Shown: positions 51,130 through 61,461 of the stretch, in pieces | How the letters are laid out: every line of letters starts with the position of its first letter | How positions within the stretch are numbered: position 1 is the first letter of the stretch | Source: Deltaproteobacteria bacterium | GTDB lineage: Bacteria; Desulfobacterota; Desulfobacteria; Desulfobacterales; C00003060 | Assembly: GCA_003647275.1 (NCBI GenBank) | Contig: QMMN01000006.1 | Coordinates: 1 to 64,000 of the forward strand | Length of the DNA: 64,000 nucleotides | Reading direction: 5' to 3' | The notes under the pieces: generated by a model | Told to the model about the DNA's origin: nothing | Databases searched by the model: none | The model's input: the letters and a program-made list of their open reading frames with translations, nothing else | Made by a program: the position numbers and the translations under genes

Positions 51130-52043
51130 AGTCAGGGAGTAATTTGGAAAGAATATTGGAAGGCGGCCAGTTTGCTGTAACTGCAGAGGCTGGGCCTCCA
51201 AAAGGGAGTTCACCTAAGGTCATTCAGAGAAAAGGGGAACTCCTCAAGCTTTGCTGTGACGCCTTAAATGTGACAGACAACCAGACCGCTATTGTGCGTA
51301 TGTCAAGCCTCAGCGGCTGTGTTCTATTAAAAGAACTGGGCGTAGAGCCGGTCTTGCAGATGGTTGTCAGGGACCGGAATCGTCTCGCCCTCCAGGGTGA
51401 CATCCTGGGAGCAGCTGCGCTGGGGATTCGTAATGTGCTCTGCCTTTCTGGCGATCATCAGAGGTTTGGCAATCACCCTGCGGCCAAAGGGGTCTATGAC
51501 ATCGACTCGATCCAGTTTATTCAGATGGTCAAAACCATGCGGGATGAGCACAGGTTTCTTAATGGTGAAGAGATCTCAGGAGATGTCCCATTTTTCATCG
51601 GAGCTGCAGCCAATCCCTTTGCCGACCCCTTTGAGTTCCGGGTCACCCGTTTGGCCAAGAAGGTAAACGCGGGTGCGGATTTTATTCAGACCCAGGGCAT
51701 CTTTGACGTGCCTAAGTTTGTTGAATGGATGAAGATGGTCAGGGACAGGGGCTTGCACGAAAAAACACATATCCTTGCCGGGCTGATACCCATTAAGTCT
51801 GTTGGTATGGCTCGCTACATGCGGAACAATGTGTCGGGCTTGAGTGTGCCACAGGAGATCGTTGACCGGATGGCTGATGCCAAGGATGCCAAGGAAGAGG
51901 GTGTGAAGATCTGTTTGGAAACCATCGAGCAACTCAAAGAGGTTGAAGGGATTCATGGCATTCATATCATGGCCGTGGCCTGGGAGGATATCGTCCCTCG
52001 CATCGTGGAAGAGGCTGGTTTGATGCCCAGACCGGTGGTGTAG
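51126..52043 (+). CDS. metF: Methylenetetrahydrofolate reductase (copy 1)
   Basis: A 305-residue TIM-barrel flavoprotein that reduces methylene-THF to methyl-THF. It starts LEGGQFAVTAEAGPPKGSSP, has DALNVTDNQTAIVRMSSLSG near residue 40, MVVRDRNRLALQGDILGAAA near residue 79, VLCLSGDHQRFGNHP near residue 104, FIQTQGIFDVPKFVEWMKMV near residue 180 and LIPIKSVGMARYMRNNVSGL near residue 220. Its stop codon TAG overlaps the first GTCATTA heptad of the next spacer. Confidence 0.93.
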   Translation: MKSGSNLERILEGGQFAVTAEAGPPKGSSPKVIQRKGELLKLCCDALNVTDNQTAIVRMSSLSGCVLLKELGVEPVLQMVVRDRNRLALQGDILGAAALGIRNVLCLSGDHQRFGNHPAAKGVYDIDSIQFIQMVKTMRDEHRFLNGEEISGDVPFFIGAAANPFADPFEFRVTRLAKKVNAGADFIQTQGIFDVPKFVEWMKMVRDRGLHEKTHILAGLIPIKSVGMARYMRNNVSGLSVPQEIVDRMADAKDAKEEGVKICLETIEQLKEVEGIHGIHIMAVAWEDIVPRIVEEAGLMPRPVV

Positions 52044-52258
52044 TCATTAGTCATTAGTCATTCGTGGGGTTCTCAAGAAATGTGTTTTAGGCGAAGGCGG
52101 AGTTTTGACATCCAGCAGCTTCCGATTTGTCGCAAGGTTGCGCCTGACGGCTTGAAAAGATGCACTTCGTGTCGGATTGCAGAATGAAAAAGAAGATGAA
52201 ACGAATATCGAGTATCCAGCAACCAATGACCAGTGACAAATGACAAATGACCAAACAA
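52043..52258. repeat. Inverted heptad arrays enclosing about 160 bp
   Basis: Left array GTCATTA GTCATTA GTCATTC (52043-52063) starts inside the metF stop codon. Right array CAATGAC CAGTGAC AAATGAC AAATGAC (52224-52251) is in the opposite sense. The enclosed 52064-52223 codes for nothing convincing. The same layout encloses the four-helix-bundle gene at 59651-60103. The minus-strand ORF through it reads repeat-derived CHWSLVAGY-type peptide and is an artefact. Confidence 0.7.
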
Positions 52259-57317: not shown

Positions 57318-57430
57318 GCAGGATGCAAGATGCAGGATACAAATTGAGTTTATTGGGTTCATTGGGTTGATTGAGTTTATCGGGTTAAAACCCGACAAAC
57401 ACAACAAGCACAACAAACACAACAGACGAG
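57318..57430. repeat. Tandem 7-mer and 9-mer arrays in the acsD-acsB spacer
   Basis: Three heptads GCAGGAT GCAAGAT GCAGGAT (57318-57338) are followed by five 9-mers TTGAGTTTA, TTGGGTTCA, TTGGGTTGA, TTGAGTTTA, TCGGGTTAA (57344-57388). A perfect hairpin TCGGGTT-AA-AACCCGA (57380-57395) ends the array. Then four 9-mers ACAAACACA, ACAAGCACA, ACAAACACA, ACAGACGAG (57395-57430) run up to the acsB ribosome site. The units are exact in length with no interruptions. Confidence 0.75.
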
Positions 57431-57441
57431 GGGTTTAGAAA

Positions 57442-59649
57442 GTGTCAAAAATCATTTGTTCGGCAGCTATTCGCGGTGCCCACAAGATTGTGGAAAGAGC
57501 AGAAACCAAGTATCAAGAGGCCTTAGATAAATGGGGGCCTGATCAAGAGATCGGCTTTCCAAACACGGCCTATTATCTGCCGATTATCTATGGCATCCTG
57601 GGTATCCCGGTGAAAAAACTTGGTGACGCAAAAGAGGTCCTGGATCGGTGCAGATCATTACTCCCTGCCATGGTGGATGAGCATGTATGGCTTCCCTACC
57701 TGGCACCGGCCCTGGAAGCGGGGATGGCCACACTCTTTGTAGAAGAGATCATTGAGGCCATCCGTTATCTGGAGTCTCCGGATTTCTATACCAAGACAGA
57801 AGACCCTGCTGATGGAAACATCTGGCTGGGCGCAGCAGATGACATTATATTGCGCAAGCGAGGCGTGGAATTCGTGGACGGCACTGCCCCGGGTTTTGCG
57901 GCTATTCTGGGAGCGCCGCCAAACAAAGATATCGCTGTCCAGCTTGCCCAGGAGCTTCAGGAAAAGAACCTGTACGTGTTCATGTGTGCGGACCATGAGG
58001 GTCGTACCATGTCCGAGCAGTTAGTAGAGGCAGGGATACAGATTGGGTGGCCGACACGTCTTGTCTCCTTTGGGCCGGAGTATACGGCGACTGTATTTGC
58101 CATGGGGTTTGCCACCCGGGCGGCCATGTCCTTTGGCGGCGTGAAGCCTGGGGATTTCAAGAACAATCTCCTTTACAATAAGGATCGTATCTTTGCCTTT
58201 GCCATGCCTCTGGGCACAGTGACCGATGAATGGTACGCCAATGCCGCTGGTGCCATAAACTGGGGCTTCCCAACGATTGCTGACACGCCCATTCCAGAAA
58301 TCCTCCCAACCGGAATCTGTACTTATGAGCATGTGGTTTCCAATGTCCCCCACGACCAATTGGTGGCCAGGGCCGTTGAGGTCAGGGGGCTGAAGGTGAC
58401 CGTATCAAAAGTCCCCATACCGGTGTCCTATGGACCAGCCTTTGAAGGGGAGCGCGTCCGGAAGGATGACCTGTTCTTAGAATGCGGTGGCGGCAAGACC
58501 CAGGCTGTGGAATGGGCCACGACCAGGGATATGGACGAGGTGGAGGATGGCAAGATCGAGCTATTCGGTCCAGATGTGGACGATGTGGAACCAGGGGCGA
58601 GGATTCCACTTGCCATCACGGTTGAGTTTGCAGGCAGGAAGATGCAGGAAGACTTTGAGCCCATTCTGGAAAGGCAGATTCACCACTTTGTCAACTATGC
58701 CCAGGGTTTTATGCACATTGGCCAAAGAGACATCGCCTGGATCAGGATGTCTAAATCGGCCGCCGGAAAAGGACTCAAGCTCAAACATATCGGGGATATC
58801 CTGCACGCCAAGTTTCATCAGGACTTTGGCGCTATTTTTGATAAAGTCCAGGTCAAACTTTACACCGAGGAAGACAAGGTAAAAGAAATTCTGGAAAAGG
58901 CAAGGCAGGTGTACCAACACAGAGACGCCCGGATCGAAGGGATGATTGATGAAACCACAGACGTCTTTTATTCCTGTACATTGTGCCAGTCCTTTGCACC
59001 GAATCATGTGTGCATCATCAGCCCGGAGAGGACCGGACTGTGTGGTGCCTATAACTGGATGGACTGCAAGGCCTCCTATGAGATCAATCCCACAGGGCCT
59101 AATCAGCCCGTGGAGAAGGGGGAGGTCATCGACCCAAAACTGGGACAGTGGAAAGGGTGTAACGAATTCCTTTACAAGGCCTCGCGCCAGGCCTTGGATC
59201 ATTACAATTTTTACAGCATTGTTCATGACCCCATGACCACCTGCGGGTGTTGTGAATGCATCGCCGCAATACTTCCTCTGTGCAACGGGGTCATGACCGT
59301 GGATCGGGATTACATGGGGATGACCCCGTGCGGCATGAAATTCACCACACTTGCCGGAACCATTGGAGGGGGGATGAGTGTACCTGGCTTTTTGGGGCAC
59401 AGCAAGTACAACATCGCTCAGAGAAAATGGATCATTGGGGATGGCGGGATCAAGCGCTTGGTTTGGATGCCCAAGCGTCTGAAAGAGGAGCTTGCAGACC
59501 GTCTGAAAGCACGGGCGGAAGAAATCGGTATCCCGGATCTGCCGGACATGATTGCTGACGAAACCATTGGGACTTCTGAAGAAGAAATCCTCCCCTTTCT
59601 GGAAGAGAAGGGGCATCCTGCACTCACCATGGATCCACTTTTGGAGTAG
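57442..59649 (+). CDS. acsB: Acetyl-CoA synthase (ACS) catalytic subunit
   Basis: A 735-residue Ni-Fe-S enzyme that condenses CO, the methyl group and CoA into acetyl-CoA (or runs in reverse). The A-cluster ligands keep the family spacing: C512, C515, C524 and C534 (SCTLC, HVC and TGLC) and C601-G-C603 (TTCGCCEC). The N-terminal domain shows GFPNTAYYLPIIYGILGIPV and VFMCADHEGRTMSEQ. It starts at GTG 57442 after AGGGG. Length is that of bacterial AcsB and includes the N-terminal CODH-binding domain, which archaeal CdhC lacks. Confidence 0.97.
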   Translation: MSKIICSAAIRGAHKIVERAETKYQEALDKWGPDQEIGFPNTAYYLPIIYGILGIPVKKLGDAKEVLDRCRSLLPAMVDEHVWLPYLAPALEAGMATLFVEEIIEAIRYLESPDFYTKTEDPADGNIWLGAADDIILRKRGVEFVDGTAPGFAAILGAPPNKDIAVQLAQELQEKNLYVFMCADHEGRTMSEQLVEAGIQIGWPTRLVSFGPEYTATVFAMGFATRAAMSFGGVKPGDFKNNLLYNKDRIFAFAMPLGTVTDEWYANAAGAINWGFPTIADTPIPEILPTGICTYEHVVSNVPHDQLVARAVEVRGLKVTVSKVPIPVSYGPAFEGERVRKDDLFLECGGGKTQAVEWATTRDMDEVEDGKIELFGPDVDDVEPGARIPLAITVEFAGRKMQEDFEPILERQIHHFVNYAQGFMHIGQRDIAWIRMSKSAAGKGLKLKHIGDILHAKFHQDFGAIFDKVQVKLYTEEDKVKEILEKARQVYQHRDARIEGMIDETTDVFYSCTLCQSFAPNHVCIISPERTGLCGAYNWMDCKASYEINPTGPNQPVEKGEVIDPKLGQWKGCNEFLYKASRQALDHYNFYSIVHDPMTTCGCCECIAAILPLCNGVMTVDRDYMGMTPCGMKFTTLAGTIGGGMSVPGFLGHSKYNIAQRKWIIGDGGIKRLVWMPKRLKEELADRLKARAEEIGIPDLPDMIADETIGTSEEEILPFLEEKGHPALTMDPLLE

Positions 59650-59650
59650 G

Positions 59651-59685
59651 GTCATTTGTCACTTGTCATTAGTCATTGGTCGTTA
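59651..59685 (+). repeat. Heptad array, left of the IVP-type gene
   Basis: Five contiguous heptads: GTCATTT, GTCACTT, GTCATTA, GTCATTG, GTCGTTA. They start two bases after the acsB stop and end 13 bases before the next ATG. They are inverted relative to the array at 60069-60103. Confidence 0.8.
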
Positions 59686-59698
59686 ATAGGATGTATTT

Positions 59699-60088
59699 AT
59701 GAAGAAGAAGGTTGAATCATTTGAAGATCTTGATGTGTATCGATTACCAGAAAATCTTGGAGATCGGATTTGGGATATTGTTTCCACATGGCAAGATTTT
59801 CCCAAGAATTCTTTGGGATATCAATTGGTAAAATCGGCTGATAGCATCGGTGCCAACATTGCGGAAGGCTTCGGGAGGTTTCATTTTGCCGAGAACAAAC
59901 AGTTTGCCAGAATTTCAAGGGGATCATTATATGAGACGCGTCATTGGCTTCGTAGAGCTTATAAGAGAAAACTATTGAATGAAGGGGAAACCAAAGAATT
60001 GCAAGAGTTGCTTGAAGAATTGTCCCCGCGCTTGAACGCATATATAGGTTCCATAGGCAAGAACAAACTAATGACAAATGACAAATGA
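59699..60088 (+). CDS. Four-helix-bundle protein, 23S rRNA intervening-sequence (IVP) family
   Basis: A 129-residue helical protein. The family signature is present: FEDLDVYRLPENLGDRIWDI near the N-terminus, then LGYQLVKSADSIGANIAEGF (about 39-58), the basic AENKQFARISRGSLYETRHW and LNEGETKELQELLEELSPRL. Such proteins were first found in intervening sequences of 23S rRNA and now appear in many bacterial genomes, often near reverse transcriptases or as lone genes; function is unclear. Here it sits between acsB and acsC in the same orientation, enclosed by inverted heptad arrays. The last residues KLMTNDK are encoded by the right array. Confidence 0.9.
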   Translation: MKKKVESFEDLDVYRLPENLGDRIWDIVSTWQDFPKNSLGYQLVKSADSIGANIAEGFGRFHFAENKQFARISRGSLYETRHWLRRAYKRKLLNEGETKELQELLEELSPRLNAYIGSIGKNKLMTNDK

Positions 60089-60103
60089 CTAATGACTAAC
60101 AAC
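60069..60103 (+). repeat. Heptad array, right of the IVP-type gene
   Basis: Five heptads TAATGAC, AAATGAC, AAATGAC, TAATGAC, TAACAAC. The first two or three overlap the 3' end and stop codon of the IVP-type gene, and the ribosome site of acsC (AACGGAGGAATAAA) follows directly. Reverse complement reads GTCATTA GTCATTT GTCATTT, matching the left array. Confidence 0.8.
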
Positions 60104-60114
60104 GGAGGAATAAA

Positions 60115-61461
60115 ATGGCTTTAACAGGAATTCAGATTTACAAACTTTTGCCCAAGACCAATTGCGGCGAGTGCGGGGTACCCACTTGCCTGGCATTTGC
60201 CATGAACTTGGCTGCAGGAAAGGCAGAGCTGGCTGGCTGCCCCTATGTTTCAGAGGAGGCCAAGGCAGAGTTGGCTGATGCCTCGGCCCCCCCCATTGCG
60301 GTGGTGGAGATCGGTACAGGGGAGAGGAAATTAAAAATTGGTGGCGAAACCGTGCTCTTTCGCCATGAAAAGACCTTTGTGAATCCGCCTGGCATCGCGG
60401 TTCTTGTCACAGATGAGATGAGTGATGAGGAGGTCGCCGGTCGCCTTGAGCGATTAAAGACATTGGAATATGAACGAGTCGGCCTGATCTTGAGGGCAGA
60501 TCTTGTCGCCGTGAAATCGCTTTCTGGCGATGCTGGTAAGTTTGAGGCCCTGGTCACAAGGGTAAAAAATCAAACAGATGCTGGCATCATCTTGATGGCC
60601 GAGGACACCAGCGTGATGGAGTCTGGCCTCAAAATATGCTCAGATCGCAAGCCACTTATGTATGCAGCGACCAAGGAAAACGCGGACGGCATGGCCAGCC
60701 TGGCCAAGGAGCATGGGTGCTCCCTCGCTGTTAAAGGGGATGGTCTGGATGAGGTCTCGGATCTGACGACAAAGCTAACAGAAGGTGGTTTGAAAAATCT
60801 GGTTATTGACTCGGGGGCCCGGGCTATAAAGAAGGCCTTTGAAGACCAGATCATCATCCGTCGGGCGGCTCTTCTCAAGAAATACCGACCTCTGGGCTTT
60901 CCGACCATTACCTTGCCGTTTGAGATGACCAATGATTCCATGCAAGAGGCATTGATTGCTTCCATGTTTGTGGCAAAGTATGGGGGCATTATCGTTCTTT
61001 CAGATTTGCAAGGACATAGTCTTTTTCCACTCTTGCTGGCCCGTATGAACATCTACACGGATCCACAGCGACCCATGGCCACCTCTCCGGGCATCTATGA
61101 AATTGGAGGACCCAATGAGAACTCGCCCGTGTTGGTGACTTGCAACTTTTCGCTTACCTATTTTATCGTGTCGGGCGAGATTGAAACGAGTCGTGTCCCC
61201 GCCTGGCTAGTCGTCGTGGATACTGAAGGTCTATCTGTATTGACGGCTTGGGCCGCTGGAAAATTTGTGGGGGATGCAGTAGGTATGAGTTTTAAAAAAT
61301 GCGGCATCATGGACAAGGTCAGTCATAAGAAGGTCATTATACCAGGGTATGCCGCAGCCATCTCCGGAGACCTTGAAGAGGAACTCGGGGACTGGGAGGT
61401 TCTGGTAGGGCCAAGAGAGTCGGCCCACATACCGGCTTATCTCAAGGAGTGGAAAGCGTAA
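60115..61461 (+). CDS. acsC: CODH/ACS corrinoid protein large subunit (gamma)
   Basis: A 448-residue subunit that holds a [4Fe-4S] cluster and the cobamide of the corrinoid/iron-sulfur protein. The cluster cysteines are C17, C20, C25 and C42 (NCGECGVPTC...GCPY). The middle is a TIM barrel, and the C-terminal part has AVGMSFKKCGIMDKVSHKKV then IIPGYAAAISGDLEEEL, the cobamide-binding domain. It is at the end of the acsD-acsB-IVP-acsC stretch, separated from acsE by a 140-bp inverted repeat. Confidence 0.95.
   Translation: MALTGIQIYKLLPKTNCGECGVPTCLAFAMNLAAGKAELAGCPYVSEEAKAELADASAPPIAVVEIGTGERKLKIGGETVLFRHEKTFVNPPGIAVLVTDEMSDEEVAGRLERLKTLEYERVGLILRADLVAVKSLSGDAGKFEALVTRVKNQTDAGIILMAEDTSVMESGLKICSDRKPLMYAATKENADGMASLAKEHGCSLAVKGDGLDEVSDLTTKLTEGGLKNLVIDSGARAIKKAFEDQIIIRRAALLKKYRPLGFPTITLPFEMTNDSMQEALIASMFVAKYGGIIVLSDLQGHSLFPLLLARMNIYTDPQRPMATSPGIYEIGGPNENSPVLVTCNFSLTYFIVSGEIETSRVPAWLVVVDTEGLSVLTAWAAGKFVGDAVGMSFKKCGIMDKVSHKKVIIPGYAAAISGDLEEELGDWEVLVGPRESAHIPAYLKEWKA

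Follow-up and report, generated by a model that had tools for sequence, protein, structure and literature searches.

Between acsB and acsC, the 64,000-nucleotide stretch analysed (the window) carries a small open reading frame (ORF) of the 23S rRNA intervening-sequence protein family (IVP), enclosed by two inverted heptad arrays. The draft assembly of the genome comprises 3.0 Mb in 172 contigs, and the whole-genome counts given below come from searches of it. The features at the locus are:

57442..59649, + strand: upstream host gene acsB, with its stop codon immediately 5' of the left array
59651..60096, + strand: whole putative cassette (left heptad array, IVP gene and right heptad array), delimited by array-to-array alignment with locus L083
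59651..59684, + strand: left array of five GTCATTn units, of which three are exact and two deviate at a single position
59699..60088, + strand: IVP gene, 129 aa, assigned by profile matches (PF05635, TIGR02436) and an AlphaFold2 model
60070..60096, + strand: right array of four exact nAATGAC units, overlapping the 3' end of the ORF
60115..61461, + strand: downstream host gene acsC, with its ribosome-binding site 3' of the right array

The ORF matches PF05635 (23S_rRNA_IVP; E 2.8e-26, 92.2 bits against a curated cut-off of 33.8) and TIGR02436 ('four helix bundle protein'; E 4e-24, 84.9 bits against 24), both scores exceeding the cut-off. Profiles and coordinates thus bear out an earlier note on this DNA, which had placed an IVP-family gene between acsB and acsC in the same direction as both. 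That note had also counted five heptads on each side, which is right for the left array; the right array comprises only four exact units. Its proposal that the right array supplies the last codons of the gene holds, these codons (MTNDK-stop) being array sequence. The window contains 14 two-unit heptad matches, compared with 0.42 expected, and none of 100 shuffled sequences contained as many. Genome-wide, 97 two-unit and 43 three-unit GTCATTn matches were counted, against 4 two-unit matches for the reversed pattern. A chance origin of the GTCATTn arrays is excluded.

Besides the gene at acsB–acsC, this genome has four complete IVP genes, all of which lack a GTCATTn unit. One of them, L005, is however bordered by inverted 9-bp arrays of a different unit, and the search was therefore extended to any tandem unit. 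It recovered arrays that the search restricted to GTCATTn had missed, the latter being a misleading negative; three of the five IVP genes of the genome have no clear array. The earlier note had held that IVP genes lacking heptads, together with heptad arrays at most gene-free sites, would reduce the association to chance. This applies to the GTCATTn unit taken alone and not to the association itself, since the unit is specific to each cassette lineage.

The any-unit search covered 222 IVP loci, of which 142 come from the genus and phylum and the other 80 from named genomes spread over many phyla. An array was scored when, within the 160 bp adjoining the gene, a tandem window reached 18 or more matches out of 21; units are 6–9 bp long, mostly 7 bp. 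In the genus, arrays are present upstream of 26/72 and downstream of 27/71 IVP loci, compared with 5/270 control windows, and in the phylum at 25/68 and 31/68 loci, compared with 5/269 controls. Named genomes from other phyla give 21/79 and 20/79 for the two sides, against 6/311 controls, and six of the eight IVP genes examined on named cyanobacterial plasmids are flanked by arrays left and right. The corresponding values for PIN-domain genes from the genus are 0/28 and 1/28. Arrays also cluster, since in the genus 7 of 18 spacers in the vicinity of IVP loci carry them. Ordinary spacers at PIN loci (3/57, none inverted) and spacers of the window (3/29) set the baseline there at ~5–10%, which is above zero. 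Across genomes of the genus, the number of GTCATTn arrays rises with that of IVP genes (Spearman 0.57, p 0.006; per Mb, 0.44, p 0.04; both phylogenetically uncorrected), which we regard as a weak hint.

The two arrays of a locus usually resemble each other as inverted copies. The array period is equal on both sides in 71 of the 72 two-sided loci (43 expected). When the left unit is compared with the reverse complement of the right, the score averages 0.83, whereas 2000 permutations gave 0.55 on average and never more than 0.595. The arms are nearer to inverted than to direct repeats at 60 loci and nearer to direct at 9, while the units themselves are diverse, 66 distinct left units occurring among the 71 loci with equal period. 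The median duplex energy between the two flanks of one locus is −56.5 kcal/mol, against −36.8 kcal/mol for mismatched flanks, and passes the 1% threshold at 70/214 loci. As judged by these comparisons of sequence, the left and right arrays of a cassette are complementary to each other. Unit similarity tracks protein identity above ~65% and is near background below ~55%, and the unit is thus passed on within the lineage and subsequently changes. The predicted RNA fold of the window cassette, only moderately better than that of shuffled sequences (z −2.1), places the arms in an outer stem and the IVP ORF, in sense orientation, in the loop. A strand asymmetry beyond simple complementarity was also observed in a set of 60 well-formed cassettes: G-rich 5' arms occur at 50 of 57 informative loci, and C-rich 3' arms at 51 of 56.

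Both neighbours are co-directional with the IVP gene in 167/203 loci and both opposite in 6; for genes of this genome generally, the corresponding values are 89/139 and 11/139. Part of this sense orientation may be a survival bias, as only intact ORFs were sampled. In 45/63 loci, the left array begins at most 20 bp from the stop codon of the gene before it, and in 29/50, the end of the right array lies within ~20 bp of the next ATG. From these distances, the cassettes can be placed at the stop/start junctions of operons.

We compared cassettes occupying different sites. The window cassette (L002) is 82% identical over 447 bp to the cassette of L083, which lies at an unrelated site in another genome; the similarity starts inside the first left unit, reaches into the right array, and there is none outside. 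Further pairs align in the same way from array to array (L141/L142, L070/L120, L135/L145, L062/L064, L086/L121 and L078/L177, the last being a pair between families). The median length of the 60 well-formed cassettes is 479 bp. At sites orthologous to those of other members, bare stop/start junctions without array were found (L352 for L126, L357 for L154), and the site orthologous to the cassette of L141 is a 31-bp spacer (L348). Given that the ends of the element coincide with the arrays, that related copies occur at unrelated sites and that orthologous empty sites exist for other members, the reading of the gene and its two arrays as a single mobile cassette of ~450 bp is strongly supported. 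The earlier note had suggested such a cassette from this one locus, and the suggestion is substantiated by the recurrence of the gene with both arrays at unrelated sites, by these empty sites and by the association across phyla.

Other arrangements were noted in the course of these comparisons. The IVP cassettes of L143 and L146 are flanked by tRNA-Ser-like sequences, into which their similarity extends. Three IVP genes lie within 4.4 kb of a single contig (G016:C200:45701-50069). At G016:C71:20564-20860 and G017:C218:9348-9644, the IVP domain is found within open frames of 414–415 codons, possibly fused to a larger protein.

Inverted arrays that enclose no gene occur in the same window. The first of the following three had been pointed out in the earlier note; the two arrays of 9-bp units within the acs operon had not:

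52043..52251, no strand assigned: gene-free element after metF with GTCATTn arms at 52043-52062 (three left units) and 52225-52251 (four right units)
57346..57425, no strand assigned: gene-free inverted array between acsD and acsB, with 9-bp units of the GTTTATTGG type, which also ends the IVP cassettes L126/L127
61467..61586, no strand assigned: gene-free inverted array after acsC, with 9-bp units AAAGTGAGCT/AAAGTGCCT, a type that also ends the IVP cassette L005

In the stretches that were read, 17 left–right pairs of GTCATTn arrays were found, always in the order GTCATTn then nAATGAC. Sixteen of them are gene-free, with cores of 17–215 bp, and only the acsB–acsC pair carries an IVP gene; arrays without the gene are therefore more frequent than arrays with it, a comparison that the earlier note had proposed. 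A search of 18 gene-free cores gave no convincing IVP remnant, and the cores are mostly unrelated to each other. These cores give no support to the view of gene-free elements as simple deletion derivatives of the cassette, but the acs site of relatives does hold a cassette that has lost its 5' part (L201) and one that has decayed (L202). This qualifies what had been said of the element after metF, namely that it is a non-autonomous or emptied relative with the same enclosing arrays: the arrays are real, and its core contains no IVP remnant and is unrelated to the other cores, so that the arms alone are common to it and the cassette.

The acsB–acsC spacer holds inverted arrays in nearly all genus relatives in which both genes are resolved, mostly without a gene, and the units are GTCATTn, 9-bp AAAGTGCCT-type or GTCAGTG. 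The comparison of this junction with and without the cassette, as the earlier note had proposed, thus yielded mostly gene-free inverted arrays, and none in the divergent genome of L212; among close relatives, no empty acsB–acsC site was found for the window cassette. Two relatives point to cassettes that have decayed at this site. L201 still has the 3' portion of the window cassette (94% over 138 bp), the 5' portion having been lost between a heptad and an internal GTCATTGG; in L202, the C-terminal half of an IVP gene of a different clade is nested inside GTCATTn arms. The metF spacer of relatives likewise carries inverted arrays that are mostly gene-free and differ in their units. Nested arrays are common, and in one spacer, with flanks 87–98% identical, the two IVP cassettes found in sister genomes are unrelated. 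At another site (L094/L099), related genomes carry the cassette in opposite orientations between flanks that are ~93% identical. The varying contents of the acsB–acsC, metF and other spacers, along with these orientations, indicate that spacers have been refilled repeatedly. Overall, these sequence comparisons indicate that gene-free inverted arrays are widespread and that a given spacer can receive different elements in turn; the process that moves the cassettes may also move or shape the gene-free arrays.

Such spacers could also be read the other way round, the inverted arrays being intercistronic RNA or DNA hairpins that turn over locally by slippage and inter-arm correction, and the IVP gene entering them as its target. 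The presence of mostly gene-free inverted arrays with differing units at acsB–acsC and metF in nearly all relatives, the largely unrelated cores and the frequent nesting would all follow from it. However, cassette copies at unrelated sites have both arrays along with the gene, and the array-free junctions L352 and L357 are two sites that fit an insertion of the gene together with both arrays. We consider this reading unlikely, while leaving it a real share of the probability.

What the mobile cassette encodes was approached through its only gene. In 12 pairs of cassette copies, dN/dS is 0.07–0.19, and the IVP protein is therefore kept by purifying selection. Its AlphaFold2 model (pLDDT 92.9) consists of four helices, and the nearest solved folds in Foldseek are 2gsc and 2rld, followed by Avd (4dwl, 8ub7); with TM-scores of 0.84/0.92 against 2gsc_B, the predicted structure is a four-helix bundle. 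A nuclease, a transposase and a reverse transcriptase (RT) were sought in the cassette and none was found, nor was an enzyme signature in the IVP protein. It has no family in PHROGs or PADLOC, and a search of viral contigs gave no relative of the window protein. Rfam gave no match at the five IVP loci of this genome; an rRNA location of the cassette is rejected on this ground and on its position between acsB and acsC.

A partner enzyme could act from elsewhere in the genome. If the cassette were a DNA element of the REP or MITE type, moved in trans by a Y1 transposase (TnpA_REP/RAYT-like) or another host transposase, the IVP gene would be a passenger. In favour of this, the elements are palindromic and intergenic, and many copies lack the gene. 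RAYT-sized Y1 proteins are also common in several relatives; G005, G014, G017 and G020 have many Y1-domain proteins of ~330–360 aa. Yet this draft genome has no Y1 match (PF01797, E ≤ 1e-5) despite its 43 three-unit matches, G016 has the most arrays and only two Y1 genes, and G001 has two Y1 genes with neither arrays nor IVP. Moreover, the units vary by locus, unlike those of a REP family, and the IVP gene is under selection. We regard this explanation as improbable. Slightly more improbable still is a retroelement-like process, in which an Avd-like IVP would deliver the cassette RNA to an RT acting in trans. The model does match Avd structures, although after IVP structures, and the sense orientation in operons also speaks for it; RVT_1, however, has no match in this genome or in G016, both being drafts that are 96–98% complete and the latter having 18 IVP matches. 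A resident RT or Y1 enzyme as an obligatory partner is disfavoured, as neither is matched in this genome. Finally, an ordinary host gene beside chance repeats, a description for which the three IVP genes of this genome with no clear array would speak, is refuted by the statistics over 222 loci and the exact cassette boundaries, and we give it hardly any credence.

We therefore return to the mobile cassette, and think it probable, with a fair margin of doubt, that this element of ~450 bp works like the ORF-bearing intervening sequence (IVS) of 23S rRNA, with IVP aiding its copying. Since no mobility enzyme was found, the steps are ones we infer. The cassette would be transcribed within its host operon, and its arms would pair in the RNA so as to enclose the ORF in a loop. 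RNase III could cut the arm stem; a cut between two cistrons would do little harm, so that the cassette could persist in operons. IVP, as a ring-forming four-helix bundle with the Avd fold, would bind its own paired arms and help to copy the element into new stop/start junctions, cutting and joining being left to host enzymes. More tentatively, and with the balance somewhat against it, one may envisage a class of its own among bacterial mobile elements, with a single gene for a non-enzymatic four-helix-bundle protein and with ends that are complementary short tandem arrays of a lineage-specific unit, which spreads via operon stop/start junctions in many phyla; the IVS of 23S rRNA and many of the orphan heptad repeats between genes would then be special cases.

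The data suggest a little-recognised kind of mobile element, present in many bacterial phyla. The IVP/S23 family has been without an assigned function since its discovery in rRNA inserts, and the definable ends of the cassette open the old idea of a mobility role for the IVS ORF to testing at a great many loci. The cassette is also a possible origin of abundant intergenic heptad repeats, and IVP as cargo of a mobile cassette calls for caution in guilt-by-association annotation. The earlier note had presumed that IVP gene families with terminal heptads were undescribed; in agreement with this, the open-access literature searched gave no account of IVP cassettes bounded by heptads.

Several known systems share features with the cassette. 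The Avd protein of diversity-generating retroelements appears, from the model, to have the same fold, but this genome gives no match to an RT, and nothing in the cassette looks like a template or variable repeat. REP/REPIN elements with their RAYT, and MITEs, are likewise short palindromic intergenic elements of which many are gene-free; they differ in that the cassette has no transposase, the genome no Y1 match and the lineages no common unit. Heptameric repeats have been reported in Xanthomonas (GGGAATC) and Nostoc (GGGGA(C/T)T) (PMC4692102) and in Beggiatoaceae (TAACTGA; PMC4679880), with 70–75 cases of the Xanthomonas repeat arranged as close inverted pairs (PMC4692102). These are also intergenic 7-bp tandem arrays, described without a link to IVP, whereas the arrays studied here are the ends of a gene cassette. 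IVP genes have been reported in cas loci and termed 'CRISPR-linked' (PMC3936711, PMC10910872). Between cas6 and cas4 on the plasmids pPg_01 of Pseudanabaena galeata (L376) and pANA02 of Anabaena sp. 90 (L379), we observed IVP genes that are each flanked by two heptad arrays. Insertion of cassettes into cas operons is the likely reason for the label, and both the published Xanthomonas heptads and the IVP genes in cas loci agree with the cassette reading.

The closest likeness is to the 23S rRNA IVS, with a PF05635/S23p ORF in an element of ~450 bases, complementary ends, a scattered distribution and a proposed mobile or selfish nature. That of Coxiella burnetii is 444 nt long, carries the S23p ORF in its loop, is closed by a 28-bp terminal stem and is excised by RNase III (PMC4990558). 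By its sequence, the cassette is built like an IVS; strictly, it is no member of that group, as it lies outside rRNA genes, in protein operons. It further differs in its arms, which are arrays of 7–9-bp tandem units differing per lineage, and in that its movement between sites is documented here by comparison.
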